From assembly GCF_002557795.1 (NCBI RefSeq), contig NZ_CP023777.1:3295001-3359000 (forward strand): 64,000 bases of DNA, written 5' to 3'. Numbering within the stretch: position 1 is the stretch's first letter; the number at the start of each line of letters is the position of its first letter. The notes beneath the pieces were generated by a model that worked only from the letters and a program-made list of their open reading frames with translations, searched no databases and was not told the origin of the DNA. Below are positions 9,293 to 29,371 of this stretch, piece by piece. This DNA is from Chitinophaga caeni. Its GTDB lineage: Bacteria; Bacteroidota; Bacteroidia; Chitinophagales; Chitinophagaceae. A program made the translations under genes and the position numbers.

Positions 9293-11281
9293 ATGAATTA
9301 TAATGAACTCGTTGCTGAATTGAAGCGCTTGGGCGTAACCCCGCCCGATACTTACAGGGCCTCGTTGTACCTCGATTACTTGCAAGCTGCCCAGCAGTAT
9401 TTTTCCAGCGCGGCGGGAATGAATATTCCCGCGAATAATTACAATTTTGTAAGATCGGCTGTACGGTCAACAAATTTACTCAACGAGATGGCCGAGGTTT
9501 TTGACCTTTACATCGGGGCGGCTGTTGAGCAGGCATTATTTGTGAATGCAGGCAATAATTGGGATTATGCACAATTTTTTAATAATGTCATCCTGGGAAA
9601 TAACTATGCTGCTAATTTGGCTGCTTTTAGAAATACTTATACTGTTTCTACTACCGCGCTTCAATTGGTTGATCAACATTTCCGGAATAATATCAGGGAA
9701 GCTTGCACTAGGGTTTTCAATGATCGTCCTTCTATAGCCACTTTCTATGAACAGATTTATAACCGCGCAATAATCGTCAGGTCATTAAAAAAAATTAAAT
9801 CATCCGGTTCCGATTTTCATAAGGGAGGTAAGCAAGTTTTAATATTAACCTACCTAGGTTCTTATGAAGGGCTTGATGATGAGGGGCAACAGGCCATTTT
9901 TTATGCTGATTATAAACTCGTGTATAAACCAAGCGATATTGAACTCGATTGTTTGATAGCAGGAAAATCTGGTGTTGTAAATGCTATCCATGACAATTTT
10001 ATGAACCGTAGTCTATTCGAAATATATAACGAACGCCTACGTATTTATAAAGCTGCAAATCCCGCTTTTGATGGTTTACCGGTAACTACTTACGGTATTC
10101 TGCCAATGGTATACCAATCTATACATGGCGGAGGTCCACCCTTACCTGTTAGAAACGCTTACGGTTACATTGAATATTTGAACCATGATCTAAATGGCGC
10201 CTGGATACAGTTTTTCGGTTATTACCCTTATGCCCAGAGCGACTACCTGATCTTTAAAAGCTTAGACAAGAATCAGATTATCAACGATTTCTATAGGACG
10301 GTGGGAGCGATGACTGCTATCGCGTGTACCTTTTCAATACAAGATTTGCATTTAGAAAACTTGAGGGTTAAGAATTATTTGCCCTACTTTATTGATATGG
10401 AAATATCCCTTACCAAGCCAACGGATATCATTGAAAATACGGTTCTTATTTCAAATGCACTCGGTGATGCAATAGGGGGGATTAATGGAATTTGCCTCGA
10501 AGCCCAGAAGATGGTTTGGGAAGTGAATGATCCGACTAATACGGGAAGAAACCTGGGTCTTGATTATACGGCTGTACCGGAGTTTTGCGAGAATAGGCTC
10601 TGGGAATGGGCGAATGTAGCTTATTACAAGAGAAATATACCTGTAAATGAAAACGTCTTACAATCTGGTTTTGATCAAGGTATGCTCATATTAAAAGAAG
10701 CGCAAGGTAATAATGATTTTAATGCCTGGTTTAATAGGATACAAGATGTAGTTGTGCGTTATATTCCTTTCCCAACGGCATATTTCAAAAATAATTTTAT
10801 TGCGACGTATTATTTGTCCCCTCAAAATGCAACGGGTAATACCGCTATGGCGACGTTGTTGCAAACGGCCTTAACGGATAAGTTTAACAACTATCAAGCA
10901 CCGGCAAACCCCAATTTTTTAGTATTGAATGGAGCACAATGCTTAACAGATTTGCTGGCGCTAGATATACCTATATATTATTACAGGGTGGGGATGCAGG
11001 ATATATTGGACTCGGATGGCAACCAGGTACAAATCCCCGCAACAATTCAAATAGATAATAATAACCCGCCACCCGCTACAGTACAGCAAAACGTTAATAT
11101 CGGCAGAAACACCTTCCTGGCTAATATTCCACCCTTTGCTATCATACAAGCACAACAGTTAAATATTTTAACGACCCCACTTTTATTCCTGCAAAGGAAA
11201 TTGGCCTTGTCCAATTCCATTAGTGACGGATTAGATGATGCTATCAAGAACCCGACCCTCGTAATCCCGATAAATAATTAA
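9293..11281 (+). CDS. Stand-alone LanM-type (DUF4135) dehydratase-like protein
   Basis: The 662-residue protein carries the kinase-like DUF4135 dehydratase domain of class II lanthipeptide synthetases. Visible motifs in order: SGSDFHKGGKQVLIL (171-185; the usual GDxHxxGRxV block), KLVYKPSD (208-215), DLHLENL (351-357) and YFIDMEISL (365-373). In LanM these residues bind ATP and Mg and act in Ser/Thr phosphorylation and phosphate elimination. The C-terminal LanC cyclase with its zinc Cys/His ligands is absent: the 290 residues after the domain show no such motif. No precursor peptide or LanT-like transporter is nearby. It heads a six-gene operon, with the next gene 6 nt away. It may modify one of the large partner proteins, or act as a kinase. 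The family call is firm, the role unknown. Confidence 0.8.
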   Translation: MNYNELVAELKRLGVTPPDTYRASLYLDYLQAAQQYFSSAAGMNIPANNYNFVRSAVRSTNLLNEMAEVFDLYIGAAVEQALFVNAGNNWDYAQFFNNVILGNNYAANLAAFRNTYTVSTTALQLVDQHFRNNIREACTRVFNDRPSIATFYEQIYNRAIIVRSLKKIKSSGSDFHKGGKQVLILTYLGSYEGLDDEGQQAIFYADYKLVYKPSDIELDCLIAGKSGVVNAIHDNFMNRSLFEIYNERLRIYKAANPAFDGLPVTTYGILPMVYQSIHGGGPPLPVRNAYGYIEYLNHDLNGAWIQFFGYYPYAQSDYLIFKSLDKNQIINDFYRTVGAMTAIACTFSIQDLHLENLRVKNYLPYFIDMEISLTKPTDIIENTVLISNALGDAIGGINGICLEAQKMVWEVNDPTNTGRNLGLDYTAVPEFCENRLWEWANVAYYKRNIPVNENVLQSGFDQGMLILKEAQGNNDFNAWFNRIQDVVVRYIPFPTAYFKNNFIATYYLSPQNATGNTAMATLLQTALTDKFNNYQAPANPNFLVLNGAQCLTDLLALDIPIYYYRVGMQDILDSDGNQVQIPATIQIDNNNPPPATVQQNVNIGRNTFLANIPPFAIIQAQQLNILTTPLLFLQRKLALSNSISDGLDDAIKNPTLVIPINN

Positions 11282-11287
11282 ACTCCC

Positions 11288-14200
11288 ATGGCTAGTTTAA
11301 TCGAACAAATCATAAATGATATCGAAGCTATCCCAATCGAACCTGGTGGTAGTTTGACCTTGGCTGCTTCAGATTTCGATCTGCCGTTCATGACCGCATT
11401 TTTTAACGACGTTTTATTACAGGATTCCCTGGTGTTGCAGGACGCGGTAAAGAATGCTACGGGAAATACCGCCATAACCCTTAACGGGAAGAGCGGTTTG
11501 TTTGGTTATATAAACCTTGCTTTAGAAATTAGTTTTTACGAGGAAGATGAACAGGTGAAGGCTAAAGTTTATGCTGTATTCCCCGCTACTTATAATCCCA
11601 TTTTGCCGGTAATTAACTGGATGCAGGCCGCCGATCTTTCCTTTACTAAAATATTGTACGAAGAGAATACCGTAGTTGATTTTAAATTTGATTTCAGTAT
11701 ATGCAGTTCCAGCTACCGGGATGTAACTTTACCTGTTTTACTGCAAAATTCCGGCGCGGCTGATTGGGAAATCAATTTAACCGGTAATGATAATAAAGCC
11801 ATCACGATTGATCAACTGGTAGCGTTGTTGGCAGGACAATCCGTGGATGATTTTTTACCCGCCCAATTGGTGAATATCCTCGCGGGTCTCAGCCTGAATA
11901 ATTTATCTACCCGGTATAACGTGGAGTTACATACCATCAATTTTTTCTCTATCGGGATCGGTGTGACCAACGGTTGGGCAATCGTGGAGGATGCCGTGGT
12001 ATTGCTACCGGGACTTCAAATCAATTTATCGCTCTTTAAATTTACCGAGAAGTCCAACTGGCTTACTTCGGCATCGGTCCTGGGTACCTTCGTATTGGGA
12101 GGTGTAAACGTTCCCGTTTATCTCGGCGCCATCATGGGGAGTACCACTACCTGGACTTTCGGTTTGCAGCCGGATACTACCGTTACCTTGCCAAGCTTTT
12201 CCGATTTGTTGGGTTTAGCCGGGGGACAGGTTTTTTTGAACTCTTTACCTTCGGGGCTCAGTGAAATTCCGGAAATTATTGTCAATACGCTCGCGATAGA
12301 ATTTGATGCAACGAAGAATGTATTGACCCGCCTCGCTTTCGGTGTAAATACGGGTAGTAGTTGGCCTATTATCGAAGGTTATTTTTCGATAGCAAAAATT
12401 TACATAGCATTTGATACCAGGGATGTAAACAATCCGCTGACAAGAAATATTTACGGGACGCTCAATGGTTTGTTCGAAGTCGGTACGGGGAATTTATTGA
12501 TGTGCTCTATCGATAAAACGGAAGATAACCCTGATTGGATGGTTACCGCCGGTTTGCCTCCGGGTAAGACCTTGAGTCTTACCGCCATCGCTTTACAATT
12601 ATTTGAAGGAAAAGTTACCGTACCCGCGAGCATTCCTGATTTCAAGTTTTCTACCTTGTTGATAACGGTTGTTCCTTCAAAGCAATCTTTTCAGTTCGAA
12701 GCCCGCTCAACGGATGTTTGGAAAATAACGGAATCTATTTCAGTAGATGCATTCGACCTGGTATTCTCCAGGAACCCGGATGATGCCGAGAACCCGATTC
12801 AAGGCAATGTGTCTACCACCTTGAACATTGCAAGTGTAGGGGTGTTTTTATCAGCATCGATTAATAGTACTACGGATAGCGGTTGGCAATTCTCCGGCAA
12901 AACAAAGCCGGGAGATCCTATCGTGATTGGCGATGTTATTGCATACGTCGTGCAAAAATTCGGCGTAGATCAACCCCCGGCTTGGATACGCACTACCAGT
13001 TTACAAGATTTATCGGTGGCTTTTAACTCGGCCACCAAGGACTTCTCATTCGGAGCAACTGCCAAGATAAAATTTACATCCACCGAATTGGCCATCCAGG
13101 TAGGATTCAGTTTACAACATGAGGATGCCGGTAAATACAAAAATGTACTGTCGGGTATTATTACGATTCAGCATATCGATGGCGGCGCTTCGGAATTTAA
13201 AATCGATTTTGAAACCGGTACGGATAACACGAAACTAACCGCTGCTTGGAAAGCCAAGGATGCATCGGAATATTTGCAATTTGCAGATTTACTGAATGCT
13301 TTCGGTTTCAATGCTCCCAGCATCCCGGAAGGGTTAGACTTGGCCCTGTCGGCGGCGACCATCATTTATGATTTTACAAATTCCAGCCTGGCTTTATCCA
13401 TTCAATCTGCTAATTACGGTAAGGCGGTGTTTATCGCGATGCGGAATCCTGCGGATCAGCAATGGGTGTACTTCTTCGGCCTCGCTTCAGACCTGGTCAT
13501 CAACTTGGCGAACTTACCGATCATCGATAAATTGACTTTTATCGATGCCGGGAAACTTGAAATTACGGCTATCGATGTAAACTTCGTTTCTACGGCAACA
13601 TCTGCGGCGCTGGCTGTGCTATTGAATCAACAGATCAAGGCGTTATTGCCGGATGAGAAGAATATCCCGGCGCTACCTGCTGAAGGCATGGACGGAACCG
13701 TATCCTTTTCAATGACGGTTAATATCGGCGGAACCTTATACCCGGTTAACCTGGTACTGGGCGGTTCAAATAATGACCAAGCCCTCGTAACGCTTGACAG
13801 TGGAGAAGAAGTCAAAACCAAGTGGTTCAACATACAGAAGAATTTCGGACCGCTTTATTTCGATAAGATTGGTTTGGGTTATAAAGACTCCCGGATTTAC
13901 GTAATGGTGAACGTCACCGCAACGGCTAGCGGCTTGAGTCTTGCCCTGAACGGCTTCGGAATTTCTTCACCGGTTACCACCTTCGAAATATCATTCACGA
14001 TAAGCGGTATCTCCATAACCTATAATAACGGGCCTATATTAATCAGCGGTGGCTTGATGGGCTCATTTAGCCCGGTAAATTTATACGGGGATATCCTGAT
14101 TAAAACATCTGCCCTGGCAATTGGGGGCATCGGCGGATATACAGAGTTGGAAGGGAAGCCTTCGATGTTCTTGTATGCCGTATTAAACTTCCCGATTGGC

Positions 14201-16036
14201 GGGCCGCCGTTTTTCTTTATTACGGGTTTATCCGCGGGATTCGGATTTAACAGGAAGTTACTGATTCCCGGGATAGAAGGGGTGTCTACATTTCCGTTCG
14301 TTGTTTGGGCCATGCCGGGTAGCGGTGCGCCGGTGCCTGATCCTACAAAGGATTTAGCAGCGCAGGTCAATAGTGTTTTGGCCGATATCGAAAATAAGGG
14401 AATCGTTGCACCGGAAGTTGGAAGCTCGTGGTTAGCGGCCGGTATTTGTTTTACTTCTTTCGAGATGGTCAACTCCTTCGTATTGGTTACCGTGATATTC
14501 GGAACGAGGTTCGAAATTGACCTGCTGGGTTTATCTAGGATCGTGATCCCGCCTGGTTCGGGTGGCAGCACCGGTATTCCGCCGGTTGCTTTCGCGGAAC
14601 TGGCGATCAAAGCATCGTACGTGGATGGAACGGGGTTAATATCTATCGAAGGACAACTTACTGAAAACTCGTACGTGTTATCCCGGTCCTGCCATCTCAC
14701 GGGTGGATTTGCATTTTATTTTTGGTTTAGCGGTGATCATGAAGGGGATTTCGTGATTTCACTCGGTGGTTATAATCCCAATTATGATGTACCGCGAAAT
14801 TACCCGAAGGTACCGAGGTTGGGCGCTAATTGGAAGGTAGACGGCAACTTGTTAATCAGCGGTAGTTTATACTTTGCACTTACCTCCAATGCCGTGATGG
14901 CAGGGGGACTGCTAGAGGCTGTATGGAGCAGTGGCGGTATCAGGGCATGGTTCATATTGCAAGCCGACTTCCTGATTATGTGGAAACCCTTCCATTATGA
15001 TATTGTTGCTAACACGGATATCGGCGCTTCATTCACGATCAACTTATTATTTACGAAGAAAACCATCACGATACATGTAGGGGTGGGTTTGCATGTTTGG
15101 GGACCCGAGTTTAGCGGTAAGGCAAAAATTAAAGTAGCGATCATATCCTTCACAATTTCCTTCGGTGCGGGCGATACAAATATTCAAAAATCTATTTCTT
15201 GGGATGAATTTATTGGGGAAATGTTGCCCCAGAAGGCTGGCAGTAACAGGACTCTAACCGGTAATGCAAACCCGGATATCTGTAAAATAAAAGTAACGAA
15301 TGGATTACTGCAACAATTAAGTGATGTTGAAGGTGAATTAAACTGGGTAGTGAATAGCTCGCAACTCGAAATTATAACGGAATCGATCATACCTTCTAAA
15401 GATTATGATATTAAAAATAGCTTGTCGCCGCAAATCCAAATCGTGCATAGAAATCTTGCGAAGGCCGCTTCGGCAAATACAGATTTCGGTGTACGACCCG
15501 TGGGCTTGGCTTCCGCTGATTTCCAATCGAAGCATATCGTTCAAATCACTTCAAGCAGCGGGGATGCTTACACTTTCCACGCCGAACCGGTATTTAAAAA
15601 TATTCCTAAGGGGCTCTGGCAGAAAATCAGTTTCAATAGATCCGGCAACCCCGATGTAGGAGATCCGTTAAATGATACGACGCTTACCAACGTGTTGACA
15701 GGTTTTAGTTTGAAACCCTTCATAGAAACACCAGCCACGGCTTTAACAGTCTTGATGCAATATTTGCAATATAATGTTAACCCGCCGCAGCAACATTTTT
15801 CCTGGGTCAATACATACATACCCGGGGACGATGATTTTCAAGGTGAAACCGTGCCCGGAACCATCATGGATACCGCGGCGCAACAAAATCGTTCCATGTT
15901 AATCGCTGCAATTCCCGACCTGGGGTTTGATATTTATTCGAATGTTGATGTTGTAACATTAGCCGATCCTTCTACATATTATCTATTAGCTGCACCCTTG
16001 TTGCGTTTACTGGGGGAAGAAAAAACTACCGTATGA
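11288..16036 (+). CDS. Giant DUF6603-like beta-rich protein, 1582 residues
   Basis: No signal peptide or membrane anchor is visible. The first about 900 residues are a long series of beta-strand stretches with repeated amphipathic LGxxxxxFxF-type phrases and few Cys. The region about 980-1330 fits DUF6603: an AMPGSGAPVPDPT segment, RSCHLTGGFAFYFWFSG, GDFVISLGGYNPNYDVP, YPKVPRLGANW, MAGGLLEAVW and WKPFHYD. DUF6603 proteins are known from scattered bacteria and fungi and have no assigned function. The C-terminal 250 residues are a separate less conserved part. It starts 6 nt after the DUF4135 gene and overlaps the next gene by 4 nt (ATGA), so translation is coupled. The DUF number is recalled from motif pattern, not searched. 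Confidence 0.7.
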   Translation: MASLIEQIINDIEAIPIEPGGSLTLAASDFDLPFMTAFFNDVLLQDSLVLQDAVKNATGNTAITLNGKSGLFGYINLALEISFYEEDEQVKAKVYAVFPATYNPILPVINWMQAADLSFTKILYEENTVVDFKFDFSICSSSYRDVTLPVLLQNSGAADWEINLTGNDNKAITIDQLVALLAGQSVDDFLPAQLVNILAGLSLNNLSTRYNVELHTINFFSIGIGVTNGWAIVEDAVVLLPGLQINLSLFKFTEKSNWLTSASVLGTFVLGGVNVPVYLGAIMGSTTTWTFGLQPDTTVTLPSFSDLLGLAGGQVFLNSLPSGLSEIPEIIVNTLAIEFDATKNVLTRLAFGVNTGSSWPIIEGYFSIAKIYIAFDTRDVNNPLTRNIYGTLNGLFEVGTGNLLMCSIDKTEDNPDWMVTAGLPPGKTLSLTAIALQLFEGKVTVPASIPDFKFSTLLITVVPSKQSFQFEARSTDVWKITESISVDAFDLVFSRNPDDAENPIQGNVSTTLNIASVGVFLSASINSTTDSGWQFSGKTKPGDPIVIGDVIAYVVQKFGVDQPPAWIRTTSLQDLSVAFNSATKDFSFGATAKIKFTSTELAIQVGFSLQHEDAGKYKNVLSGIITIQHIDGGASEFKIDFETGTDNTKLTAAWKAKDASEYLQFADLLNAFGFNAPSIPEGLDLALSAATIIYDFTNSSLALSIQSANYGKAVFIAMRNPADQQWVYFFGLASDLVINLANLPIIDKLTFIDAGKLEITAIDVNFVSTATSAALAVLLNQQIKALLPDEKNIPALPAEGMDGTVSFSMTVNIGGTLYPVNLVLGGSNNDQALVTLDSGEEVKTKWFNIQKNFGPLYFDKIGLGYKDSRIYVMVNVTATASGLSLALNGFGISSPVTTFEISFTISGISITYNNGPILISGGLMGSFSPVNLYGDILIKTSALAIGGIGGYTELEGKPSMFLYAVLNFPIGGPPFFFITGLSAGFGFNRKLLIPGIEGVSTFPFVVWAMPGSGAPVPDPTKDLAAQVNSVLADIENKGIVAPEVGSSWLAAGICFTSFEMVNSFVLVTVIFGTRFEIDLLGLSRIVIPPGSGGSTGIPPVAFAELAIKASYVDGTGLISIEGQLTENSYVLSRSCHLTGGFAFYFWFSGDHEGDFVISLGGYNPNYDVPRNYPKVPRLGANWKVDGNLLISGSLYFALTSNAVMAGGLLEAVWSSGGIRAWFILQADFLIMWKPFHYDIVANTDIGASFTINLLFTKKTITIHVGVGLHVWGPEFSGKAKIKVAIISFTISFGAGDTNIQKSISWDEFIGEMLPQKAGSNRTLTGNANPDICKIKVTNGLLQQLSDVEGELNWVVNSSQLEIITESIIPSKDYDIKNSLSPQIQIVHRNLAKAASANTDFGVRPVGLASADFQSKHIVQITSSSGDAYTFHAEPVFKNIPKGLWQKISFNRSGNPDVGDPLNDTTLTNVLTGFSLKPFIETPATALTVLMQYLQYNVNPPQQHFSWVNTYIPGDDDFQGETVPGTIMDTAAQQNRSMLIAAIPDLGFDIYSNVDVVTLADPSTYYLLAAPLLRLLGEEKTTV

Positions 16037-18189
16037 AAATAACTTTGCAAGATGCTGAAAGGGAGATGACTTTCATCGAGTACGAAATGCCGGCGCTGAA
16101 GTCGGCAGAATACACCGTGAAAGTTACGCAGGAGACAAATCAAGATCCCGGCACTTTCTCAAGCTCCCGGAAGTTTGCCGTTACATCGGAAAGATTTTCT
16201 ATCGATGTGAACGATATCGATTCGGTATTTCCACAGAATTTGGCCAACGGTTCTTTTGATAAGGCGGTACCACATGTTTTATTCAACAAGAAGAACTTAC
16301 CCTGGGAACGGTTCAGTATTAAAAATAATGATAAGGCGCCCTGGTTGGCTATATTGTTATTCGATGAAGGATCTCAACCTAAGATCAATAAGTTGCAAGC
16401 AAAAGATCTTGTTCCTGCCGGTACAACTATCACGGTAGCCGGATCCAGCGTTACCGGTACCGGTACGATGGCGAACAATATTTTTTCTTATCCCGGTTTG
16501 CAGCAGTTAAGTTACGGGGAAACGCCGGATGAAAGTTGCAACGTCATCGATATCCCGCTGGATTTATTCAACCAAGTGGCGCCATCAGCGCAAGATCTAC
16601 CTTACCTGGCGCACATCAGGCAAATGGAGACGCTCGATAAAACAGATGCGCTGGCTAATTTATTAGAAGACTTCGCCCTCGTTATCGGGAACCGTTTGCC
16701 GCAAGTCGATCAACCGAGTTATGCATACTTGGTTTCATTGGAAGATTTCGGTGAATACTTACCTGGAAATGATGGAACGAATAATATCCCGGCAGGTAAA
16801 AATACAGTCCGGTTATTAAGTTATATGAATTGGAGTTACACCGCCAATCATCAAGATCAATCCTTTACCGATTTACTGGAAGGTTTGAATAAAACAGCGG
16901 ACGGTAAGCAGGAGTTGACGGTTTTACAAGTTCCGTTCCACGGCGAAAGTCCCAGTAATGAAGCGGTACAACTCGCCTTGACCAAGCAGAAATCAGGTAG
17001 TCTCAGTACCACCGACGCAACAATTCTAGCTAAGAATGCTGTTATGATGGGTTATACACCTCATGGTCACTCGATGCGCTTCGGTGGGCATTCTGTTTCC
17101 TGGTACCGCGGTCCCTTAACGTCTTTCAATATCGTGAACAAATTAGGCTTCCCGGTTTCCTGCCCGGATGCCGTAACGGGTTACAACCCTGAAACGGGGA
17201 TGTTCGATGTTTCTTACGGCGCAGCTTGGCAATTGGGACAATTGTTAGCCTTGCAAAATAAGAGTTTCTCTTCCGAATTATATAATTGGAAGAAGAGTTT
17301 ATACGCGTACCAGGTGTTGGAGGCAGAACAATCCATCATCGCTAATAAATACAAGGGCATCAATGCTTTTGAACATATTTTTTCCCGCCGGATAACGAAG
17401 ATGGAATCCACTTTGGATATCCCGGAAAATATTGTTGAATGGATGGGCAGGCTCAGCCTTCTGTGCGGTGTACCGTTTAATTACCTCGTACCGGATGAAC
17501 GCATGTTGCCACCGGAATCGCTCCGCTTTTTTTATATCGATAATTGTTGGATCGATGCATTGATGGACGGTGCATTTAGCATTGGAAGAGCTACAACTGC
17601 ATCTATGACTATCGAAGCGCCACACCTGGAAAGATTGAAAATGCATGCGCGTGGAAAGGCGGCCGGTTTCAGGTTGCGAAAAGCGAGGGTAAGCGATTGC
17701 AACAATGTTGACGGGATAATTACCGGGTGTTTATTGCGTTCCGCCCTGCTGGCTGGCTGGCCGGGGTTGGAAATAGTAGGTTATAGCGATAAAGATGCTG
17801 GGAACGAGATATGCAAACTTAGAATGGATAGACTTTCTGACGAGGTCATCATCTGCATTTTCAACGGTGACATACAGCGGGTTTCCCTGCGCGAGCCACC
17901 TGAATCTTTGCATTCTGGCGTCGACGGTGAAGCCCCGGATTATTATACCGGTTTGCGGGTAGTACAGGGTGAAGGTACACCGGGAAAGGGGATTGAAGGA
18001 GCTAGAGCCGACATACCCACGCGCAACGGAACCGCTACTTTGCAAATGGGAATCGCGGCGGAGAATATGAAAACGGTATTAAATGCCCCGCCTTTGAATG
18101 AAGGTATAGAGGATTTTAATTCCTCGCAATTTGCACTGGAGATGGTGAAGGGAGCAGTGAAAGTTGATTTTGTAAACGACAAAAGTTAA
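16033..18189 (+). CDS. Conserved hypothetical protein, 718 residues
   Basis: A soluble protein without signal peptide or membrane helices. The N-terminal half is mixed beta (residues 1-160) followed by alpha/beta. The segment FDVSYGAAWQLGQLLALQNK with FSSELYNWKKSL (about 394-425) is a helical stretch I have seen in large uncharacterised proteins that accompany DUF6603 proteins. The motif GHSMRFGGHSVSWYRGPL (about 345-362) has three His within 16 residues plus Arg and Trp and could be a metal or phosphate site. Its start codon overlaps the stop of the DUF6603 gene. No function can be assigned. A structural subunit of an assembly with its neighbours is an inference from the operon. Confidence 0.6.
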   Translation: MKITLQDAEREMTFIEYEMPALKSAEYTVKVTQETNQDPGTFSSSRKFAVTSERFSIDVNDIDSVFPQNLANGSFDKAVPHVLFNKKNLPWERFSIKNNDKAPWLAILLFDEGSQPKINKLQAKDLVPAGTTITVAGSSVTGTGTMANNIFSYPGLQQLSYGETPDESCNVIDIPLDLFNQVAPSAQDLPYLAHIRQMETLDKTDALANLLEDFALVIGNRLPQVDQPSYAYLVSLEDFGEYLPGNDGTNNIPAGKNTVRLLSYMNWSYTANHQDQSFTDLLEGLNKTADGKQELTVLQVPFHGESPSNEAVQLALTKQKSGSLSTTDATILAKNAVMMGYTPHGHSMRFGGHSVSWYRGPLTSFNIVNKLGFPVSCPDAVTGYNPETGMFDVSYGAAWQLGQLLALQNKSFSSELYNWKKSLYAYQVLEAEQSIIANKYKGINAFEHIFSRRITKMESTLDIPENIVEWMGRLSLLCGVPFNYLVPDERMLPPESLRFFYIDNCWIDALMDGAFSIGRATTASMTIEAPHLERLKMHARGKAAGFRLRKARVSDCNNVDGIITGCLLRSALLAGWPGLEIVGYSDKDAGNEICKLRMDRLSDEVIICIFNGDIQRVSLREPPESLHSGVDGEAPDYYTGLRVVQGEGTPGKGIEGARADIPTRNGTATLQMGIAAENMKTVLNAPPLNEGIEDFNSSQFALEMVKGAVKVDFVNDKS

Positions 18190-18192
18190 AAA

Positions 18193-21100
18193 ATGGCTGA
18201 TAGTAATTTCGGGTTGATCGTCCCCGTAAATGTTACCGCTTTATGCGTAGGGATCAAGGATCAACAAGATCCCGATGGTACCAGCAAGTTTGCCGGGGCC
18301 ACTACATCATATATCAATCAAATGGGAATCTACGATGCATTCCTCGGCTCCAATGTCGTGCGCACATTAGTGGAAGCTCCCTTGCATCAGCTAAAAAAAG
18401 GTATTCATATACATTGGGCTTTGCCTTCCTCCCTCTCGCAAGGGAATTTCGATCCCGGCACAAATACAAGCAGCTTTGTGGCAACGCCTAACCGCTGGCT
18501 AATTAGCCGGATGATTATCACGGATGGTCAACCCAGCAGAACTACATGGGTCATCGAAAGCGATGCCTTAACCGTTCCCGGCAGTCAACAAGATGACGTG
18601 TTAATTACCTTACCCGTGCGGCAACTAACTCCCTCGGATACGGACTATCAATACGTCGGGAAACCTGTTGTTTTTAGTTCTGAATGGACGGAGCCCAATA
18701 ACTCGGAGGTCTTCAAAAACTTAACCGGGCAGCCGCTTTCGGCGGTAGCTAATGGAGATTCTACTTTCGCGGCATTTTACCCTAATTGTAGGAATGTATT
18801 CGGTTTTTATGATGCATTGGAAAGCTATAAAGGACCTGTTCAGATTATGTACCAAGTGCTAGGCTGGTATAGCGTGAGTGAAGATGATCCTTTACACGGT
18901 GGATTAACAAATGAGCAATTGCAAGATATCCTGGGCTGGACATTTGAAGACAGTCAAGAGGTACCGGGCTATTCAACTTATTATGGACTAACACAATCCG
19001 TCCAGTGGGATGAGAACCGTAGTTATATCGTGGATGCCGGCAATAATGATATCGAGGTTACTGCAACGATAGGGAATAACCCGCCGGAAACCTTTTCCGC
19101 GTATTTTAAAGAGCGGATACACCCCGGTATCGATTTTTTTGAAGACCTGCTGAATGCATTCCAAACCGGTATCTTACCCATTTTTAGAGAACCGGCAGCC
19201 GGGCAATTAGCATTATTACAACAAGTGCTACACGGGAAACAGTTCAATCCTACGGACGCCGGAAATATTTACATGGTGGTTCGAAAACCTGATGATGATA
19301 ATATCAATGATCCATCAGCAGAAAGCCCCGTAACAGATTTGCCGTTACAGTTGGGCATTGCCTTAAATCAATTGAATATTTACCAGCAACAAGTAGATTA
19401 TTTCACTACTTATATCGATCAATATAAATCCCAATTGTTTGCAAACTGGTACCGCTTGATGAAAGCGGAAGGCGATGATGAAAAAAATGATTTATACCTA
19501 CTGTTGCAGGAACAAATCAACTTGTATACAAATCAACTCGAAGATACTTTACAACGACTGCAAACGAATTTAACGGATCAGTTGGAAGTGGTAAATGATC
19601 AAATCGCGGCTTTAAATACGGAAAGGGACATTGTTCCGGTATTAGAACTCAAGATCACGGCTGTTAATAAATATTGGCAGCCCAATGAGCCGGTGATTTT
19701 ATTGACCGCCCCCAGTTTTGAAGGAACCTTGCGTTTCGAAGAACTTGAAATTAATTCGGAGTCGGAGGGCTGGTTATTATGCAGGGTTACCAACCAAGTA
19801 TTAACTGCCCTGGCAATTGAAGGAACAGGCATACCAGCTAGCGATTTTAATTCCATATTATTGCCCCAGCCGAATCATTTACCCTATGCCGCATTATCGG
19901 ATCAACTTTTACAGGAAGCCTGTTTGCTAAATACGTCGATCGCGGGTAAAATTACCGGGTTGGATGTTGCCCTGCTGGAAGAAAATTTAAAGCTCGCTTT
20001 ACAAAGACGCGATCAAACAGTGTATACATTTACCGGCTTTCCCCCCATCTTAAAGGCGGTGCAATGGTGGGATGAAAATCCTTGGAATCCTATACTCACC
20101 GGGTGGGAAGCCCGGTTTTCGCCATTACAACCTACCAGGCAGGATGGGGAGATTAAGGAATACAATCCTAATTTCTTTACAAACAATTATACGGTCAACC
20201 AGGATGAAGGTGGATTTATCACTTATAAAGGAGCGACGGATCCAGAACAGGTCATCCGTTTCGGGCAGGAGATCTATACAGGTAGCGCCATACTTTCTTC
20301 CAGCGCGGCATTGGCCTTTGGAAAGCAGCTGGCGGGATATCTGGCCGTACATCCGGATAATACCTTGCAAGAAATATTGGATGATCTGGCTACCGGGAAA
20401 TATTTATCCTTCCCATTGAGTGGTTTGAACGCGGGTTTGTTGATGAAGGAAGACGAGCTGCAACTCAATATTAAGGTTCCGGAAAGTAATCCCTATTATT
20501 TCATTACGGAAAGCGTCAGCAAAATCGTTGGCGAAGCATACAATATTTCACCACGTCCTAACGGGCATTTTAACCCGCTGAGGGCAGGGTACATGGATGT
20601 TGCTTTTTTTGTGGTGGATGTTTACGGCAGGAAAAGGTCGCTGAAAATACAGCAACAGGTTAATGCCAGCTCGATGGTCAGCTATTTTAATAGTCAGCAG
20701 ATTAAGGATGTCATTTTCGTACCGCCTAGGCTGAGTCAACCTGCAAGGCTAAACTTCAGGTGGATCTCCAACGCGGATAGCAGCGGTTTTCAAGAGATGA
20801 ACGTGCAGCCTGCTACCACGCCCGTTTGTGGATGGATCGTGCCAAACCACCTCGATGAAAGCTTATTTTTTTATGATGAACTGGGGAAAGCCCTGGGAAG
20901 TATTTACCTGGACGGTAACCATTCGAAAGTGTTGTGGTTGTCGGCGCCGGGAAATAATCAGACCATCGGCAAAAGCGTACAGGAAGTTTTTCAATATGAA
21001 GACCCGGTGTTATCGGACTTGGCAAATGCATTAATGGAAAACGGGCCGGGGTTCTTTTCCAGTTTTTGGAAGGCGATAGATGATATGCATAATTTTGTAA

Positions 21101-22263
21101 ATCCTTCTAACTTTTCTCAAAATAATGACCTGGCTGTATTGATAGGGCGACCCGTAGCTGTAACCCAAGCGCTATTACGCTTGGAAATAGCGGGCGGATC
21201 CCAGGTTAACCAAGCTTGGAATACGATTGATCCTAATAATAACAATTATACGGGCGTACAATTTCCAGTGATACTGGGAGACCTGGAGAATATTAACGAC
21301 GGGTTGATCGGTTACTTTAAAGAAGGAACAAGCGGTTATGATTTCGGTAATTTTTATTGTGAAGCCGCGGTTTCTGAAAACGGGGTGCAAAAGCCCGGCC
21401 CTAAGAACATACTGATCACACCTAGTCCTGCTTTAATGAGCGATTCTTATGAAGATATTTCCAAGGGTTCCATGAAAATATTGATGCTAGTTGATCCCAG
21501 GGCTGCAATTTATGCTACATCGGGGATTCAGCCGATATGCAAATTGGAGATTCCCGCCAATCAATATGTAGATGTAATCAGCACCTTGGAAATGACCTTC
21601 TTGGCTTCCCCCGTTTTAAGGGGCGTTACCGGTATGAATATTCCCTTGGCTAAAGAAGAGGGTTACCAATGGAGTTGGGTTGAAGAAGATAGCTTGGGCA
21701 ATCAACCATTATGGACTACCGTTGCCGGCTTGAAATTTAATACCAACGAGGCCATCGCCGCGTATACGCCGCAAACGATCCGGGAAGGCTGGTTAAAATT
21801 AACCCCGCAGATCTTATCATTTTCATTGCTCAATTCCGCCGGGCAGCCCACGGCCGTGCCTGGCCAAGAGAATACTTTCGTATTGACCATGAAAAATGAA
21901 AAATCAAATCAGCTCAAATTCATCCCGGGGCAACTATTACCCGAAGGTGTGCCGAATAACGGTGCTGCTTTCTTTATCCATTTCGGAACATTAGTGCCGG
22001 AAGATAGGGTTGCAGGCATACAACCCAGTGCAGACGGATGGGATTTTAAAGCGGTGACAGATCAAAGGTTCGGCAATTATTGGGTAGCCACCCTGAAAGA
22101 AGGATTAATACTGGATAAGGGCGCTTTTGTCAGCTTCAACTTAGCAAGGGTTTACGTTGCAGCAAATGAAGGTGAAATACAGATCCAGGTGTATGTTGAT
22201 TTTATCAATATCCAAGGTGTGAACGATGGTACGGATGCTTCCCTTATAACACTCACTAGTTGA
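18193..22263 (+). CDS. Conserved hypothetical giant protein, 1356 residues
   Basis: It begins FGLIVPVNVTALCVG and continues with a conserved-looking KKGIHIHWALPSSL (about 67-80), then VATPNRWLISRMI. This opening is shared by large uncharacterised bacterial proteins, but I cannot name a domain. Residues about 384-482 form a long Gln/Leu-rich coiled coil. The rest is beta-rich with no transmembrane segment, and the last 150 residues look like a beta sandwich. No signal peptide is visible. It starts 3 nt after the previous stop. A scaffold or fibre-like component is possible from the coiled coil between beta domains, but this is inference. Confidence 0.6.
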   Translation: MADSNFGLIVPVNVTALCVGIKDQQDPDGTSKFAGATTSYINQMGIYDAFLGSNVVRTLVEAPLHQLKKGIHIHWALPSSLSQGNFDPGTNTSSFVATPNRWLISRMIITDGQPSRTTWVIESDALTVPGSQQDDVLITLPVRQLTPSDTDYQYVGKPVVFSSEWTEPNNSEVFKNLTGQPLSAVANGDSTFAAFYPNCRNVFGFYDALESYKGPVQIMYQVLGWYSVSEDDPLHGGLTNEQLQDILGWTFEDSQEVPGYSTYYGLTQSVQWDENRSYIVDAGNNDIEVTATIGNNPPETFSAYFKERIHPGIDFFEDLLNAFQTGILPIFREPAAGQLALLQQVLHGKQFNPTDAGNIYMVVRKPDDDNINDPSAESPVTDLPLQLGIALNQLNIYQQQVDYFTTYIDQYKSQLFANWYRLMKAEGDDEKNDLYLLLQEQINLYTNQLEDTLQRLQTNLTDQLEVVNDQIAALNTERDIVPVLELKITAVNKYWQPNEPVILLTAPSFEGTLRFEELEINSESEGWLLCRVTNQVLTALAIEGTGIPASDFNSILLPQPNHLPYAALSDQLLQEACLLNTSIAGKITGLDVALLEENLKLALQRRDQTVYTFTGFPPILKAVQWWDENPWNPILTGWEARFSPLQPTRQDGEIKEYNPNFFTNNYTVNQDEGGFITYKGATDPEQVIRFGQEIYTGSAILSSSAALAFGKQLAGYLAVHPDNTLQEILDDLATGKYLSFPLSGLNAGLLMKEDELQLNIKVPESNPYYFITESVSKIVGEAYNISPRPNGHFNPLRAGYMDVAFFVVDVYGRKRSLKIQQQVNASSMVSYFNSQQIKDVIFVPPRLSQPARLNFRWISNADSSGFQEMNVQPATTPVCGWIVPNHLDESLFFYDELGKALGSIYLDGNHSKVLWLSAPGNNQTIGKSVQEVFQYEDPVLSDLANALMENGPGFFSSFWKAIDDMHNFVNPSNFSQNNDLAVLIGRPVAVTQALLRLEIAGGSQVNQAWNTIDPNNNNYTGVQFPVILGDLENINDGLIGYFKEGTSGYDFGNFYCEAAVSENGVQKPGPKNILITPSPALMSDSYEDISKGSMKILMLVDPRAAIYATSGIQPICKLEIPANQYVDVISTLEMTFLASPVLRGVTGMNIPLAKEEGYQWSWVEEDSLGNQPLWTTVAGLKFNTNEAIAAYTPQTIREGWLKLTPQILSFSLLNSAGQPTAVPGQENTFVLTMKNEKSNQLKFIPGQLLPEGVPNNGAAFFIHFGTLVPEDRVAGIQPSADGWDFKAVTDQRFGNYWVATLKEGLILDKGAFVSFNLARVYVAANEGEIQIQVYVDFINIQGVNDGTDASLITLTS

Positions 22264-22295
22264 TAAACCAATTATATCATGTATAAATAACGATT

Positions 22296-25200
22296 ATGAA
22301 AGATTCGCAAATTTCCAGCCCACAACTTTCGTATGCGATTAATAACCCGGGAGCCCCGAATACTATTTATATAACGGATGATCCTACCGTAAACAAATTG
22401 AGCCTGCTGATCACCTTAAATTTGGGTGTGGCAACGTTTGTTCCCGGAACATTAGTGCCTAAGATCGATGCCCCGGATAGTAGTGGCTCCTTGTTATACC
22501 TCGATTTGAAAGCTTTACAATTAAGTGCAACCGAGTTTAATAACTTGGAAGTGGCAGCTACCGATTGGACATTCAAATTATACCCGGATACTTTCACTGT
22601 TGGTATGACCCCTACAAGATCATTATCCTTGGGCAGTGGCGTGGGAGATCAATTCTCTATTACCATTAATAACCTGGTAATGGAAAACCCGCCTTCTTCA
22701 CCGAGTGCAAGCCTGAATGTAACGGCATTCAGGGTAGACCCCGTCGCAACTGGAAAATTACCGCAGGTTTCATTCTTTAAAGTCTTGTTGCAAGAAGCGC
22801 CAAGCAATAAGAAAAATTTGCCTGATGCTATCGTTTGCGACCTCAACGGCAGCGGTAATATTTTCAATTCTATCGATGGCTATGAACCGGTCAGCAACCA
22901 GGTCTCATTCTTGTTCAAACCCGGGAATAAGGCTGCAAATGTACTTGCCGGCCCCGATACGGTATTCACGGTTTCTTTTGTTTATGCCGATGCTTGGCCC
23001 GGTTACGGCGCTTTAACTACCCCGGATACAGCATTGAATATCGAGGTAAGGCAAGGGCAAAATGCCGAAGATTGGGCGGTGTCCCAAGATCCCGACGCGC
23101 AAAACCCAAGTTGGAACTTAGTGCCGAAGGCAGGAGCGCCCATTATAGGTGAAGGGGTAAAATCGGTCGTGCAATTTGAAGTGCAAAAAATTGTCACCAC
23201 TTTTGAACCCGGACCCACCCTGATGTTTGTACAATACAGCCATGTGCCGGGTTATAATGACGGTTCTTATTATCTCGTACTTAATAAAATTCCCCATGTT
23301 GACATCAATGAACTCACGGTAACGCCCAATCCTTCCACGGTTAAAAACGGTAAGGCGCAAGTTACCGTTAGTTGGAAAGTACAGCATTATGTGCTACTAA
23401 CCTTAATGCCTTTTTACAAGGATGTTACGAATATGGATAGTATCGATCTCGACCTTGAAACCAGCCTGGATATTACCCTGGTAGCTAATGGCCCCGGCGG
23501 TGCAACGAATACCGTGATGAAAACGGTATCGGCAAACGTGTTGCCGGAGATCAACTCTTTCAACGCTACACCTACCAATATTTATAAGAAGGATTTTCCC
23601 CATATGGTGAAATTTTATTGGGATGTAGATACCAATGAAACCGTTTATCTTGTTAATGTCAGCGAAAATACCAAGGAGGTAGTTGATAGAACCGGTACCC
23701 TCTACAAAGACGTTTCTCAAGCCGGTATGTGGTCTATCGTGCCAAAGAACGACAGCAATATGTTTCAATTAAGGAGGAATGTATTGATTGAAGCATTTGA
23801 TCAGCAGCATAAGGATGCAAACTTGAATTATGTTCCCCGCAAAATCGTAGCGTCACCAACGGCGCAGTTCCTTGCAGCGATGGATCCGGCAAGTAAAAGC
23901 ATCCAAATAATTAATTCATTGACTTATGATTCTTATGCGCCGGCTATACAGTTAGGTGCGGCGCCGATAGATTTAATCTTTTCGGAAGATGGCACGTATT
24001 TATTTACAATACTAGAAAATAATTCATTAGTAGTAATCGGTATCAGTTTCGATACCGGGACGTCCATATATACTTTCAATATTTTAAATACGGTTCAATT
24101 AGATTTTAAACCGGCCAGTTTGGCGCTATCGCAACAAAATAAATATGTTTACGTAAGCGCTAATGATACCGGCGATCAACAAGGGCATTTACTGGTTGTT
24201 GAACAGCTCGATCCCAGTACTTACGCTGTGAAAAGTGACTTACCCATTGGTTTGAATGCCGCCGGGATAGCAACTGATCCAAGCGGGGCCATGATCTATG
24301 TTTGTAATGCCGGGAGTGACTCCGTCAGCGTGATCGCATATAATTCCTTCGATGATGATTTCAGTATTACGAATACCATCTCGGATATCAGCGGCTATCC
24401 TTTAGATATCGTGGTAGCCGATCCGCTGGGAAATACGTTGCTGGTAGTTTGTAAAAATAACGGGAAGCTACTTGCCATAAATCATGATGACAGGGGGTAT
24501 TCAGATAGGCAAGAGTTGGATTTGGGTGGAACGCCTGTAAGTATTGATGTAACTTATGACAGGGCATACGCTTTCATAACAAATGATAGCACAAATTCGG
24601 TAAGCCTGATCGGCTGTGGCGCAGGTGTAGGTAATTGTAAGATTTTAGAACAAGGTATCCCTGTAGTAGCGCATCCTGATGGAATTTCGCTTTCCATGGA
24701 TGATACGATGGTTTTTGTTGCCAGTAATTCCGAACAGAAATTTACAATCATCAACCTGGTAAATTATCAATTGAAGGGTAATCCTACAGATGTGGGAAAA
24801 TCTCCGACCGGTGTGATCGTGAGTAATGATAATAAGTATGCCGTTACCTGGCATAGCGCCTTAATAAGTATGGGGAATGATTCCGATGTTCCGGGACTAT
24901 ATATCTACAATACATTAACGGGAACCGTTACACTTGCCATGAAAGATACGGAGGTGATCGATGCGGTATTTTCCCAGGCGTTACCGGTGACTAAAATGTT
25001 CATGGTGTCGAAAAGCAATAATAGTATTGATGTTCTCAGTACAAGCGATTTTACCTCTGAATTGAAAATACCCATCCCTGATGCTACGAGCGGGGAAAAG
25101 CGTTATCCAAATGCAATATCTATTTCGGCAAGCGGTCAGAATATGTATGTAGTAACAAAGGATTCGAAAGGGAATTACTCCATGCTCATATATTCTTGCG

Positions 25201-25784
25201 ATATAGGGTCGAATGTATACAAAGTAATTTTTGATCAAGAGTTATTTAATTCAACGGTGAAATCAAACCTCGTATTATTAGCAAATTCACCCAGCGGGAA
25301 CCATGCTTTTGTACTTGATGTATTTAGCGGCAATCTATATACAGTTAAAAGGGATGCAGGGGGGACATTCGAATTGTTAAATAAAGATATCACGATCAGT
25401 TCCATTGCCAAATCGATGATTTGTTCCCCCAGCAACAATACTTTGTATATCCTGACACAGATTAACCTGAAAACCGGCTTCACAATTTTAGATATTGAAA
25501 CGATGGAAGTAAGGAACTATACGTACCCTGTTTCTTACGGCCAAATTCTCAACCTGCAAAGGCTTGCCATATCACCGGATGGAAGCCGCTTATTTGCCAC
25601 CGATGCAGACATGACAGGCGTCAGGATCATCAACGCCACGAACCTAAGGATAGTGCAAACGCTTTCATATGAATCCAATATCCGTTACCCGATGGGAATC
25701 GCCATGGTGCCGGATGCGAGCGCTATTTACTTCACGGGTATGAATAGTGGCAATATCGCGCAATTAAAACAAATCAATTCATAA
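22296..25784 (+). CDS. YVTN/YncE-like beta-propeller protein, 1162 residues
   Basis: The first 310 residues are a beta-rich domain of unknown type. Residues about 335-500 look like two Ig-like domains (VDINELTVTPNPSTVKNGKA, then EINSFNATPTNIYKKDFP). From about 520 to the end there are at least ten blade-like repeats with the YVTN pattern (AGIATDPSGAMIYVCNAGSD, GISLSMDDTMVFVASNSE, LAISPDGSRLFATDADM), so the C-terminus is one or two beta-propellers, usually protein-binding platforms. No signal peptide is present. The gene follows its neighbour by 32 nt, the widest gap in the operon. Propellers of this type occur with DUF6603 proteins in other large gene clusters (recollection, not checked). Confidence 0.7.
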   Translation: MKDSQISSPQLSYAINNPGAPNTIYITDDPTVNKLSLLITLNLGVATFVPGTLVPKIDAPDSSGSLLYLDLKALQLSATEFNNLEVAATDWTFKLYPDTFTVGMTPTRSLSLGSGVGDQFSITINNLVMENPPSSPSASLNVTAFRVDPVATGKLPQVSFFKVLLQEAPSNKKNLPDAIVCDLNGSGNIFNSIDGYEPVSNQVSFLFKPGNKAANVLAGPDTVFTVSFVYADAWPGYGALTTPDTALNIEVRQGQNAEDWAVSQDPDAQNPSWNLVPKAGAPIIGEGVKSVVQFEVQKIVTTFEPGPTLMFVQYSHVPGYNDGSYYLVLNKIPHVDINELTVTPNPSTVKNGKAQVTVSWKVQHYVLLTLMPFYKDVTNMDSIDLDLETSLDITLVANGPGGATNTVMKTVSANVLPEINSFNATPTNIYKKDFPHMVKFYWDVDTNETVYLVNVSENTKEVVDRTGTLYKDVSQAGMWSIVPKNDSNMFQLRRNVLIEAFDQQHKDANLNYVPRKIVASPTAQFLAAMDPASKSIQIINSLTYDSYAPAIQLGAAPIDLIFSEDGTYLFTILENNSLVVIGISFDTGTSIYTFNILNTVQLDFKPASLALSQQNKYVYVSANDTGDQQGHLLVVEQLDPSTYAVKSDLPIGLNAAGIATDPSGAMIYVCNAGSDSVSVIAYNSFDDDFSITNTISDISGYPLDIVVADPLGNTLLVVCKNNGKLLAINHDDRGYSDRQELDLGGTPVSIDVTYDRAYAFITNDSTNSVSLIGCGAGVGNCKILEQGIPVVAHPDGISLSMDDTMVFVASNSEQKFTIINLVNYQLKGNPTDVGKSPTGVIVSNDNKYAVTWHSALISMGNDSDVPGLYIYNTLTGTVTLAMKDTEVIDAVFSQALPVTKMFMVSKSNNSIDVLSTSDFTSELKIPIPDATSGEKRYPNAISISASGQNMYVVTKDSKGNYSMLIYSCDIGSNVYKVIFDQELFNSTVKSNLVLLANSPSGNHAFVLDVFSGNLYTVKRDAGGTFELLNKDITISSIAKSMICSPSNNTLYILTQINLKTGFTILDIETMEVRNYTYPVSYGQILNLQRLAISPDGSRLFATDADMTGVRIINATNLRIVQTLSYESNIRYPMGIAMVPDASAIYFTGMNSGNIAQLKQINS

Positions 25785-25801
25785 AATAAACCGATTTAAT
25801 T

Positions 25802-26848
25802 ATGGCATATGAAGGACTTTTTATAAGGGATTATGTTGGAGAAACGCCAGATGGCGCCAAGGGTACCAGTTGGACCCAATCGCCCGATATATGTGTAAGC
25901 GGCCCAACGCCTTTACCGGATCCCCAGGTCTTGGTCAACCGGGAACAATACGATAAAGGATCACCTTCCATGAATGATCAAACTCCGTTGCAATCCAACT
26001 TCGTGTATGTAAGGGGGCTAAATACGACGGATAATCCACTGACAGCAACCATCTATTTATATTATGTTGATACAAGTATTGTGCTATGGCCACAGAATTG
26101 GAAGATGGATACGATTACCCACATTAATGAACCGGGTATTCCTATCAATGCGGCCCAGGTTATAGCAGATCCCCAGGGGCTTGCTGCAACGATAAGCCCT
26201 TTTAGCTGGATCCCGCCCAGGGATAATAATCACTATTGCTTGGCCGCCTGGGTTAAAGATGGAGCTGATCAACTAGTACCACCGGATTTGTACAGTATCG
26301 GGACTGTTAATGATATGGCAAATTTTATCCTGACACATCCGAATATAGGTTGGAAAAATACCACCGAAGTAGATGCTACACAACCTACGATCGAAAATTA
26401 TGCGTCCATCATGGGTGCAGAATATGGAGGTTTGTTAAACGTCGGGGTGCAATGCCAAAACCTACCGACGGATGGGGAGATCGAGTTTTATGTACCTGGT
26501 CCCGACGCAGAGAATACAATTATTTTCCCGAGGACACCGATCGCAACTCCAAACTATGCGCCTACGGTACAGGTGCGTTGGCCGCCTAGTTATAATTCCT
26601 CTATAACCTTCAAGTATTATAAAGGAAAAACTGATCCACCGGATGGCGCCAATATTATCCCAATTGTAGGAACGATGGGTACAGGTTTCGATTTTATAAA
26701 AACAGCGCAAAGAATGGCGCCGAACCGTTTGGCAGACGTAACATGGTTCAGTTCGCCGGCGCAGCTTAAAAACCCAAACCAATACGGTGGGGTACCCATA
26801 CAGAAACTATTTATAGTGGGAAGCGTACCATTTGAATTGATTAAATAG
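25802..26848 (+). CDS. Beta-rich hypothetical protein, last gene of the operon
   Basis: A 348-residue soluble protein without signal peptide. Residues about 15-160 read like an Ig/fibronectin-like domain: NFVYVRGLNTTDNPLTATIYLYYVD, then FSWIPPRDNNHYCLAAWV, the last a phrase typical of beta-sandwich domains in large secreted or structural proteins. The second half (about 200-348) looks like a further beta domain. It follows the propeller gene by 17 nt and is followed by a strong terminator, so it closes the operon. Its function is unknown. Confidence 0.6.
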   Translation: MAYEGLFIRDYVGETPDGAKGTSWTQSPDICVSGPTPLPDPQVLVNREQYDKGSPSMNDQTPLQSNFVYVRGLNTTDNPLTATIYLYYVDTSIVLWPQNWKMDTITHINEPGIPINAAQVIADPQGLAATISPFSWIPPRDNNHYCLAAWVKDGADQLVPPDLYSIGTVNDMANFILTHPNIGWKNTTEVDATQPTIENYASIMGAEYGGLLNVGVQCQNLPTDGEIEFYVPGPDAENTIIFPRTPIATPNYAPTVQVRWPPSYNSSITFKYYKGKTDPPDGANIIPIVGTMGTGFDFIKTAQRMAPNRLADVTWFSSPAQLKNPNQYGGVPIQKLFIVGSVPFELIK

Positions 26849-29286: not shown

Positions 29287-29360
29287 CGGGACGTAGCGCA
29301 GCCCGGTAGCGCACTTGCATGGGGTGCAAGGGGTCGCTAGTTCGAATCTAGTCGTCCCGA
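29287..29360 (+). tRNA. tRNA-Pro (anticodon GGG)
   Basis: The 74-nt cloverleaf has a 7-bp acceptor stem (CGGGACG/CGTCCCG), a D arm with AGCGCAGCCCGGTAGCGC, an anticodon stem CTTGC/GCAAG with loop ATGGGGT (anticodon GGG at 29321-29323), and a T arm with TTCGAATC. The discriminator base is A and CCA is not encoded. Confidence 0.95.
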
Positions 29361-29371
29361 CGAACAAAATC

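Follow-up and report, generated by a model that had tools for sequence, protein, structure and literature searches.

This study concerns a 64,000-nucleotide stretch of Chitinophaga caeni DNA (contig NZ_CP023777.1, positions 3,295,001 to 3,359,000 of the forward strand; hereafter, the window) and, within it, a run of six genes, designated A to F, at positions 9293–26848. An earlier note, made from the sequence without database searches, had described this run as an operon in which a cyclase-less LanM-type protein is followed by five giant or beta-rich partners. The six genes are listed below with their Pfam matches.

Gene A, 9293–11281, + strand, 662 amino acids: predicted stand-alone LanM-type dehydratase, occupant of an exchangeable slot (PF13575 DUF4135, E value 2.2e-21)
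Gene B, 11288–16036, + strand, 1582 amino acids: predicted giant beta-sheet protein (PF20248 DUF6603, E value 8.4e-135, residues 849–1362)
Gene C, 16033–18189, + strand, 718 amino acids: conserved core protein, a fusion of C1 (about 1–445) and C2 (about 456–718) (no Pfam match)
Gene D, 18193–22263, + strand, 1356 amino acids: conserved core protein that includes a stretch of helix, probably a coiled coil, and a C-terminal domain (from about 1200) common to E (no Pfam match)
Gene E, 22296–25784, + strand, 1162 amino acids: fibre-like protein with a D-type docking domain, a putative immunoglobulin (Ig)-like part, and a propeller tip (Lactonase PF10282, 7-bladed propeller, E value 2.4e-10)
Gene F, 25802–26848, + strand, 348 amino acids: found in part of the relatives, sometimes as two copies (no Pfam match)

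The six open reading frames (ORFs) are separated, in order, by 6, -4, 3, 32, and 17 nucleotides; their sizes, common strand, and gaps of -4 to 32 nucleotides are all as the earlier note gave them. Scans with Pfam and NCBIfam reported no LanC or ATP-binding cassette (ABC) transporter family in A–F, which bears out the description of A as a DUF4135 protein lacking cyclase and exporter. As to the cytoplasmic or contractile-type assembly that the earlier note put forward as an alternative, the family scans revealed no sheath, tube, or baseplate family in A–F; no sorting domain was reported for them. The absence of signal peptides from the six proteins, also claimed previously, agrees with N-terminal hydropathy, a simple measure rather than a dedicated predictor. 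By the same measure, the N-termini of flanking beta-lactamase-type and esterase genes resemble signal peptides, whereas that of D is mildly hydrophobic (2.28 versus 2.68 and 3.18 in flanking genes). A carboxylesterase gene (26974–28506) that starts 125 nucleotides 3' of F has a secreted-type N-terminus and is not counted in the operon.

Scanning one genome per species with an alignment of C identified at least 79 loci (numbered below with the prefix L), in which B and D were scored by profiles grown from the window genes. B lies beside C in 74 of the 79 loci, D in 67, and both in 65, always on the strand of C (74/74 and 67/67); the recurrence on which the earlier note had staked its proposal is therefore present, and the conservation of B, C, and D together is far beyond chance. 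Several of the loci that lack B or D are short contigs, but four (L085, L093, L095, and L101) exceed 21 kb. In GC-rich loci the first ORF calls took wrong-strand frames, an error for which the later counts correct in part. The usual gene order is B-C-D-E, with D-E-B-C in a number of loci, e.g. cyanobacterial and myxobacterial ones, and C1 and C2 are separate genes in many relatives. By our own phylum assignment, the 79 loci span Bacteroidota, Chlorobi, Cyanobacteria, Actinomycetota, Chloroflexota, Pseudomonadota, Myxococcota, Acidobacteriota, Nitrospirota, Verrucomicrobiota, Desulfobacterota, Zixibacteria, and SAR324, as well as Bacillota (Symbiobacteriaceae, Sporomusa, Anaerostipes, Roseburia, and Oscillospiraceae). 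When C alone was compared with other sequences, 1090 of the 7989 scored proved related at E ≤ 0.001; the best 119, those listed, are at least 42% identical, mostly near full length, and belong, going by their source names, to Bacteroidota, Actinomycetota, Chloroflexota, Pseudomonadota, and others. Within groups the distribution is sparse: single-sequence searches detected D in 8 of the 147 genomes searched from the window's family, and C in 7 of the 296 from its phylum, the window's own genome included. The conserved unit thus consists of the four-gene core B, C, D, and E, accompanied in part of the relatives by F (L020, L021, L040, L046, L047, L049, and L051), plus an exchangeable slot gene. 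The proposal that all six genes form one system stands for B, C, D, and E and falls short for A, which is found in few loci and has other genes in its place. In one relative, Chitinophaga sp. E66 (L059), A, B, C, D, and E are broken into many frames, which reflects either decay or assembly errors.

D and E are linked through a common domain. The C-terminus of D (last ~150 residues) is homologous to the N-terminus of E (hhalign probability 97.9, E value 6e-13, nine sequences each). A profile of this domain found it in 40 loci, as a rule in the gene after D, and also at the C-terminus of D itself in L047–L055, L059, and L069. Moreover, a natural D-E fusion exists: in the 2565-residue protein P0252, residues 3–1363 are D-like (41%) and residues 1398–2563 are E-like (38%). 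The best PDB sequence matches of D are helical or coiled-coil proteins, with an E value of 0.0011 at best. The propeller of E matches an S-layer propeller (PDB 1l0q, E value 3.1e-14), and NCBIfam adds propeller matches that lie below cut-off; we read the region between docking domain and propeller as Ig-like. The tip region varies among relatives. In 55 genes after D, Pfam reported Kelch_4 in 13, Lactonase in 9, NHL in 3, SGL in 3, Collar in 3, Peptidase_S74 in 2, and Gp10_C in 1; the last three we take to be phage tail parts. These domains suggest that E is a fibre with a changeable tip. The downstream lists left out L043, L059, L069, L088, L098, and L129; 55 of the 56 genes of the first list were scanned (L089 dropped) and 57 of the 71 of the second (14 dropped). 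No sheath occurs among the families reported for neighbours of the core; for the downstream genes these were 25 of 29 and 25 of 34 families. Radical_SAM and SPASM each occur in 1 of the 55 genes after D and in 3 of the 57 later genes. In clostridial clusters, radical S-adenosylmethionine (SAM)-type genes with a CxxxCxxC motif directly follow E (L120, 16974–18029; L121, 16916–17956; L122, 16823–17914).

The position 5' of B is exchangeable. Four loci were excluded from the slot tallies: L126, L129, and L018 and L040, which lie on the contigs of L088 and L098. B is present in 88 loci, and in 48 of them a gene on its strand lies no more than 100 nucleotides 5' of it; these genes comprise 4 copies of A, 2 pieces of B, 2 copies of E, and 40 others. 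Allowing gaps of up to 150 nucleotides and including A, 48 slot genes fall into 24 families by BLAST linkage. Even where the order is C-D-E-slot-B (L088, L104, and L115), the slot gene adjoins B. By motif, slot genes of metallo-beta-lactamase type occur at six loci and of DNase-I type at four. Pfam at E ≤ 0.001 confirms each of these types in 2 of 38 slot-side genes and reports Lipase_3 in 3 of them; the lipase loci were assigned by motif and clustering, as the Pfam tallies name no members. A fifth DNase-I-type gene (L069) was recognized by similarity and has no Pfam match. The 38 genes were chosen by hand and include the E-type genes of L079 and L101, probably the source of two Collar matches in this tally, as well as ordinary neighbours with RecG-helicase domains. 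In L055, the slot gene matches Peptidase_M91, described as "Effector protein", at 28.5 bits (cut-off 25) and contains an HELVH motif; that of L044 matches GIY-YIG at 19.7 bits, below the cut-off of 22.6. A small family with a [KR]-CH-x-x-S-[WF] motif was observed in or near the clostridial slot (L121, 5102–6103; L122, 4974–5837; L120, 17986–18951).

In the window, the slot is occupied by A. DUF4135 is its sole Pfam family, the LanC-type cyclase domain of LanM enzymes is absent, and the LanM model TIGR03897 of NCBIfam gives a partial match of 81.8 bits against a cut-off of 304. A has 156 relatives, of which 120 rows, including the window's own, were listed and 28 sequences picked for spread were aligned. 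Ten positions are invariant in all 28: D174, H176, K212, D351, H353, N356, D368, E370, R489, and T495. The earlier note would have been undermined by family members without the kinase residues; instead, these residues never vary in the alignment. The profile of A matches the lanthipeptide synthetase CylM (PDB 5dzt) with an E value of 3.5e-12. Nine of the ten positions, counted along the 5dzt alignment, fall on CylM D252, H254, D347, H349, N352, D364, E366, R506, and T512. The tenth, K212, we assume from its YKP motif to be the equivalent of CylM K274; this position lies outside the aligned CylM blocks, and the LicM2 alignment there is non-significant. According to the CylM study (PMC4550811), K274, D347, H349, N352, and D364 matter for the phosphorylation step, while D252, H254, R506, and T512 matter for phosphate elimination. 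Judged by these residues, A is a LanM dehydratase with a complete catalytic set and no cyclase. Since the kinase and elimination residues are all kept, A should both phosphorylate and eliminate. No small ORF is common to the window and L047–L049 or L043 in the 700 nucleotides upstream of A (457 nucleotides in L043).

A is a rare occupant of the slot. It is found in 4 of the 79 loci identified through C: it occupies the slot in L043, L047, L048 (as two tandem copies), and L049, and is broken in L059. A genome-wide search of the 37 genomes behind 38 of the 79 loci, with L086 left out, revealed full-length A in 3, fragments in the genome of L059, and none in 29. The other four gave only short matches of 26–30 bits in frames of 513–1173 amino acids, which we read as ordinary LanM proteins. 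For the seven core relatives with C at least 43% identical (L050–L055 and L069), the genome search turned up no full-length A. Among these, the slot of L055 holds the M91-type gene, L053 its homologue, L069 the DNase-I-type gene, and L051 an uncharacterized 524-residue protein; in L054 a gene lies 186 nucleotides away, and in L050 and L052 nothing lies on that strand. In a sample of 395 genomes of the phylum, A is present in two, the window's and G297, both with the core alongside. Two relatives of A from contigs of the same length, P0012 and P0017, suggest a second tandem pair like that of L048. Linkage of A with C or D through contigs of equal length (P0008, P0012, P0013, P0016, P0017, and P0034) was considered and judged weak: it came from a comparison by hand of 38 of 119 A relatives with 8 C and 5 D rows, made after coincidences had been noticed, and the source contig of P0034 (6096 bases) is too short for A-B-C arranged as in the window.

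Structure models were obtained for part of B and for C. Residues 383–1582 of B (mean predicted local distance difference test score (pLDDT) 77.7; predicted template modeling score (pTM) 0.52) form a run of long, mostly antiparallel strands, the faces of which alternate in hydrophobicity more than shuffled ones do. The best fold matches are ApoB100, LptD, the BC shell of toxin complex (Tc) toxins, SprA, and porins, all with low coverage scores; in the 50 matches listed, template modeling (TM) scores on query length are at most 0.15, and the probability for the Tc BC shell is 0.23–0.28. The model of B is equally compatible with a shell, a barrel, and a lipid belt. C (mean pLDDT 80.1; pTM 0.72) is modelled as mixed alpha/beta, with no PDB match at E ≤ 0.001. 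The description of the partners as beta-rich therefore agrees with the modelled part of B and with the propeller that Pfam finds in E, and disagrees with C; for F, beta content may be present, an impression from inspection of its sequence.

Parts of this operon resemble known systems. B is a full member of DUF6603 (PF20248; 450.6 bits against a cut-off of 27), a family to which Pfam gives no function and which was not named in the literature searched, a search whose reach did not extend to most subscription papers. Tc toxins and extracellular contractile injection systems consist of large proteins with variable binding tips and exchangeable effectors. Their likeness to the core is an analogy of working only: the scans found no RHS, TcA/TcB, sheath, tube, or baseplate family in A–F, and the match of B to the BC shell is weak. 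A corresponds to the dehydratase domain of LanM enzymes such as CylM, with its catalytic residues invariant, but differs from them in lacking the cyclase domain and an exporter; no common precursor ORF was found in up to 700 nucleotides upstream, and its gene precedes a DUF6603 core. The dehydrazole clusters (PMC10676384) share DUF4135 dehydration without lanthionine rings; their enzyme CcaM, unlike A, contains a class III-type cyclase domain and is encoded together with YcaO and a precursor, none of which was found in A–F. Tox-Peptide Kinase of Zhang et al. 2012 (PMC3482391) is a lantibiotic-synthetase-type kinase proposed as a toxin domain of Photorhabdus virulence cassette (PVC)-type systems of Firmicutes, with the motifs DxH, YKP[KR], DxHxEN, DxE, and R. 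Set against these published motifs, the A family has invariant DxH, DxHxxN, DxE, and R; a few aligned sequences differ at the E of DxHxEN, and the residue after YKP is S, G, A, or T where the published motif has K or R. A is also free-standing and in another gene context, with no contractile families in A–F; this comparison is one of description and motif only. Given that proposal, A as an effector has a precedent and, taken alone, would add a member to a kind already known. No precedent for the core was found in the literature searched, and a broader search led back only to PMC3482391; within that literature, the core B-C-D-E is undescribed. The earlier note's statement that no described system has this content thus holds for the core, with Tox-Peptide Kinase as the precedent for A.

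We tentatively favor, with somewhat less than even confidence, a model in which the operon products form a fibre-tipped complex whose proteins lack signal peptides and which carries an exchangeable enzyme as its payload, in this case a protein dehydratase. The core of this multi-protein assembly, produced in the cytoplasm, would consist of B, C, D, and E. B would provide a body of very large antiparallel beta-sheet, to which C would belong, and D and E would join through their common domain to form a fibre. The fibre tip, which varies (propeller, Kelch, tail-collar, and so on), probably recognizes a surface. We infer that the slot product, an enzyme in the recognizable cases, travels with the assembly. 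As the slot enzyme, A would act as an ATP-dependent protein Ser/Thr kinase-plus-lyase that dehydrates (or phosphorylates) target proteins. It is conceivable but doubtful that the core forms a particle for delivery or display, unrelated to Tc, contractile, or Rhs systems and present in many phyla with a polymorphic slot next to B, and that A is a payload dehydrating Ser/Thr of targets, which would be an irreversible modification of proteins by a lantibiotic-type enzyme.

A number of observations weigh against this model. Of the 88 loci with B, 14 end at a contig edge before the slot and 9 have an opposite-strand next gene; several have no slot gene, and at least one gene in the slot position is an ordinary neighbour (RecG-like, L068). 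The majority of slot families have no Pfam match, and of ten slot proteins scanned singly, eight had no match over cut-off or with an E value below 0.001, the exceptions being L055 and, marginally, L044. The L055 homologue in L053 lacks both an HExxH motif and any Pfam match. Some slot families consist of short proteins that may not be enzymes at all, or may be kin of the N-terminal part of B. C showed no known fold, the fold matches of B are low-scoring and contradictory, and nothing in the operon was recognized as a secretion route, an immunity gene, a pore, or a contractile part. Finally, the radical SAM/SPASM genes of relatives fit maturation better than payload.

Maturation was in fact one of the earlier note's own hypotheses, in which A acts on Ser/Thr of a large partner; radical SAM/SPASM proteins would play the same part in clostridial relatives. 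The retention of both kinase and elimination residues in A is consistent with this role, as are Radical_SAM/SPASM genes near the core and the genes with a CxxxCxxC motif that immediately follow E in L120, L121, and L122. If A were a modifier that the large partners require, its presence in few loci and the other genes found in its slot would be difficult to explain, and the seven relatives with closely similar C have neither A next to the core nor a full-length A found in their genomes. The intact catalytic residues speak for the hypothesis and the rarity and replacement of A weaken it; we consider it unlikely. The dehydratase could instead belong to a cryptic pathway for a ribosomally synthesized and post-translationally modified peptide (RiPP), in which it dehydrates an overlooked small precursor and the large proteins are unrelated neighbours or a carrier. 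DUF4135 dehydration without lanthionine rings is known from the dehydrazoles, although the enzyme there needs its LanMbC cyclase-like domain (PMC10676384). The loci share no small ORF in up to 700 nucleotides upstream of A, A–F include no YcaO or exporter family, and both phylum-sample genomes with A carry it beside the core, which together make such a pathway very improbable.

Other explanations address the core rather than A. It could be an intracellular or envelope complex for lipid handling or structure, with B as an amphipathic beta-belt or barrel and slot enzymes acting on lipid or polymer cargo. The alternating strand faces of B invite this view, but strands of soluble sheets alternate in hydrophobicity too. 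The low TM-scores of B, the lack of the signal peptide that an envelope protein would need, and slot genes of metallo-beta-lactamase and DNase-I type, ill suited to lipids, render it quite unlikely. An adhesive structure at the surface or outside the cell, S-layer- or fibre-like and without payload, in which slot genes regulate or process B–E, would accommodate the resemblance of the E propeller to an S-layer propeller and of other tips to phage fibre tips. It is at odds with the lack of signal peptides, the absence of any sorting domain reported for A–F, and the diversity of slot genes, and seems to us rather improbable.

Four families are kept together from soil Chitinophaga to cyanobacteria and gut Clostridia, and two of them, C and D, lack any Pfam match. 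A core kept over so many phyla must do something generally useful, and the exchangeable slot with its enzyme-like genes offers a direct handle on that function. Activity of A in the absence of a leader peptide would make it a new kind of protein dehydratase.

Several observations were made outside the operon. A gene at 38168–39739 of the window encodes a C-terminal Tox-ART-HYD1 domain (E value 5.1e-21) and opens a long run of mostly short same-strand ORFs that extends to about 63800. Two ORFs of this run match the same stretch of the large phage family phrog_10385, and the run looks like a polymorphic toxin cassette array. Between it and the operon region lies a tRNA-Pro (ggg) gene (29287–29361) that may be an integration site. 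Elsewhere in the window's genome (G000:C1:3588572-3591327), about 270 kb from the operon, are two phage-sheath-family matches, one of them over cut-off; the genome may thus contain a contractile-type system with no link to the operon. On the Paenibacillus polymyxa plasmid p-YT9A (L127; 1–4301 and 12224–20343), the core lies ~8–9 kb from phage baseplate V-type, DUF4280, and GH-E nuclease genes.

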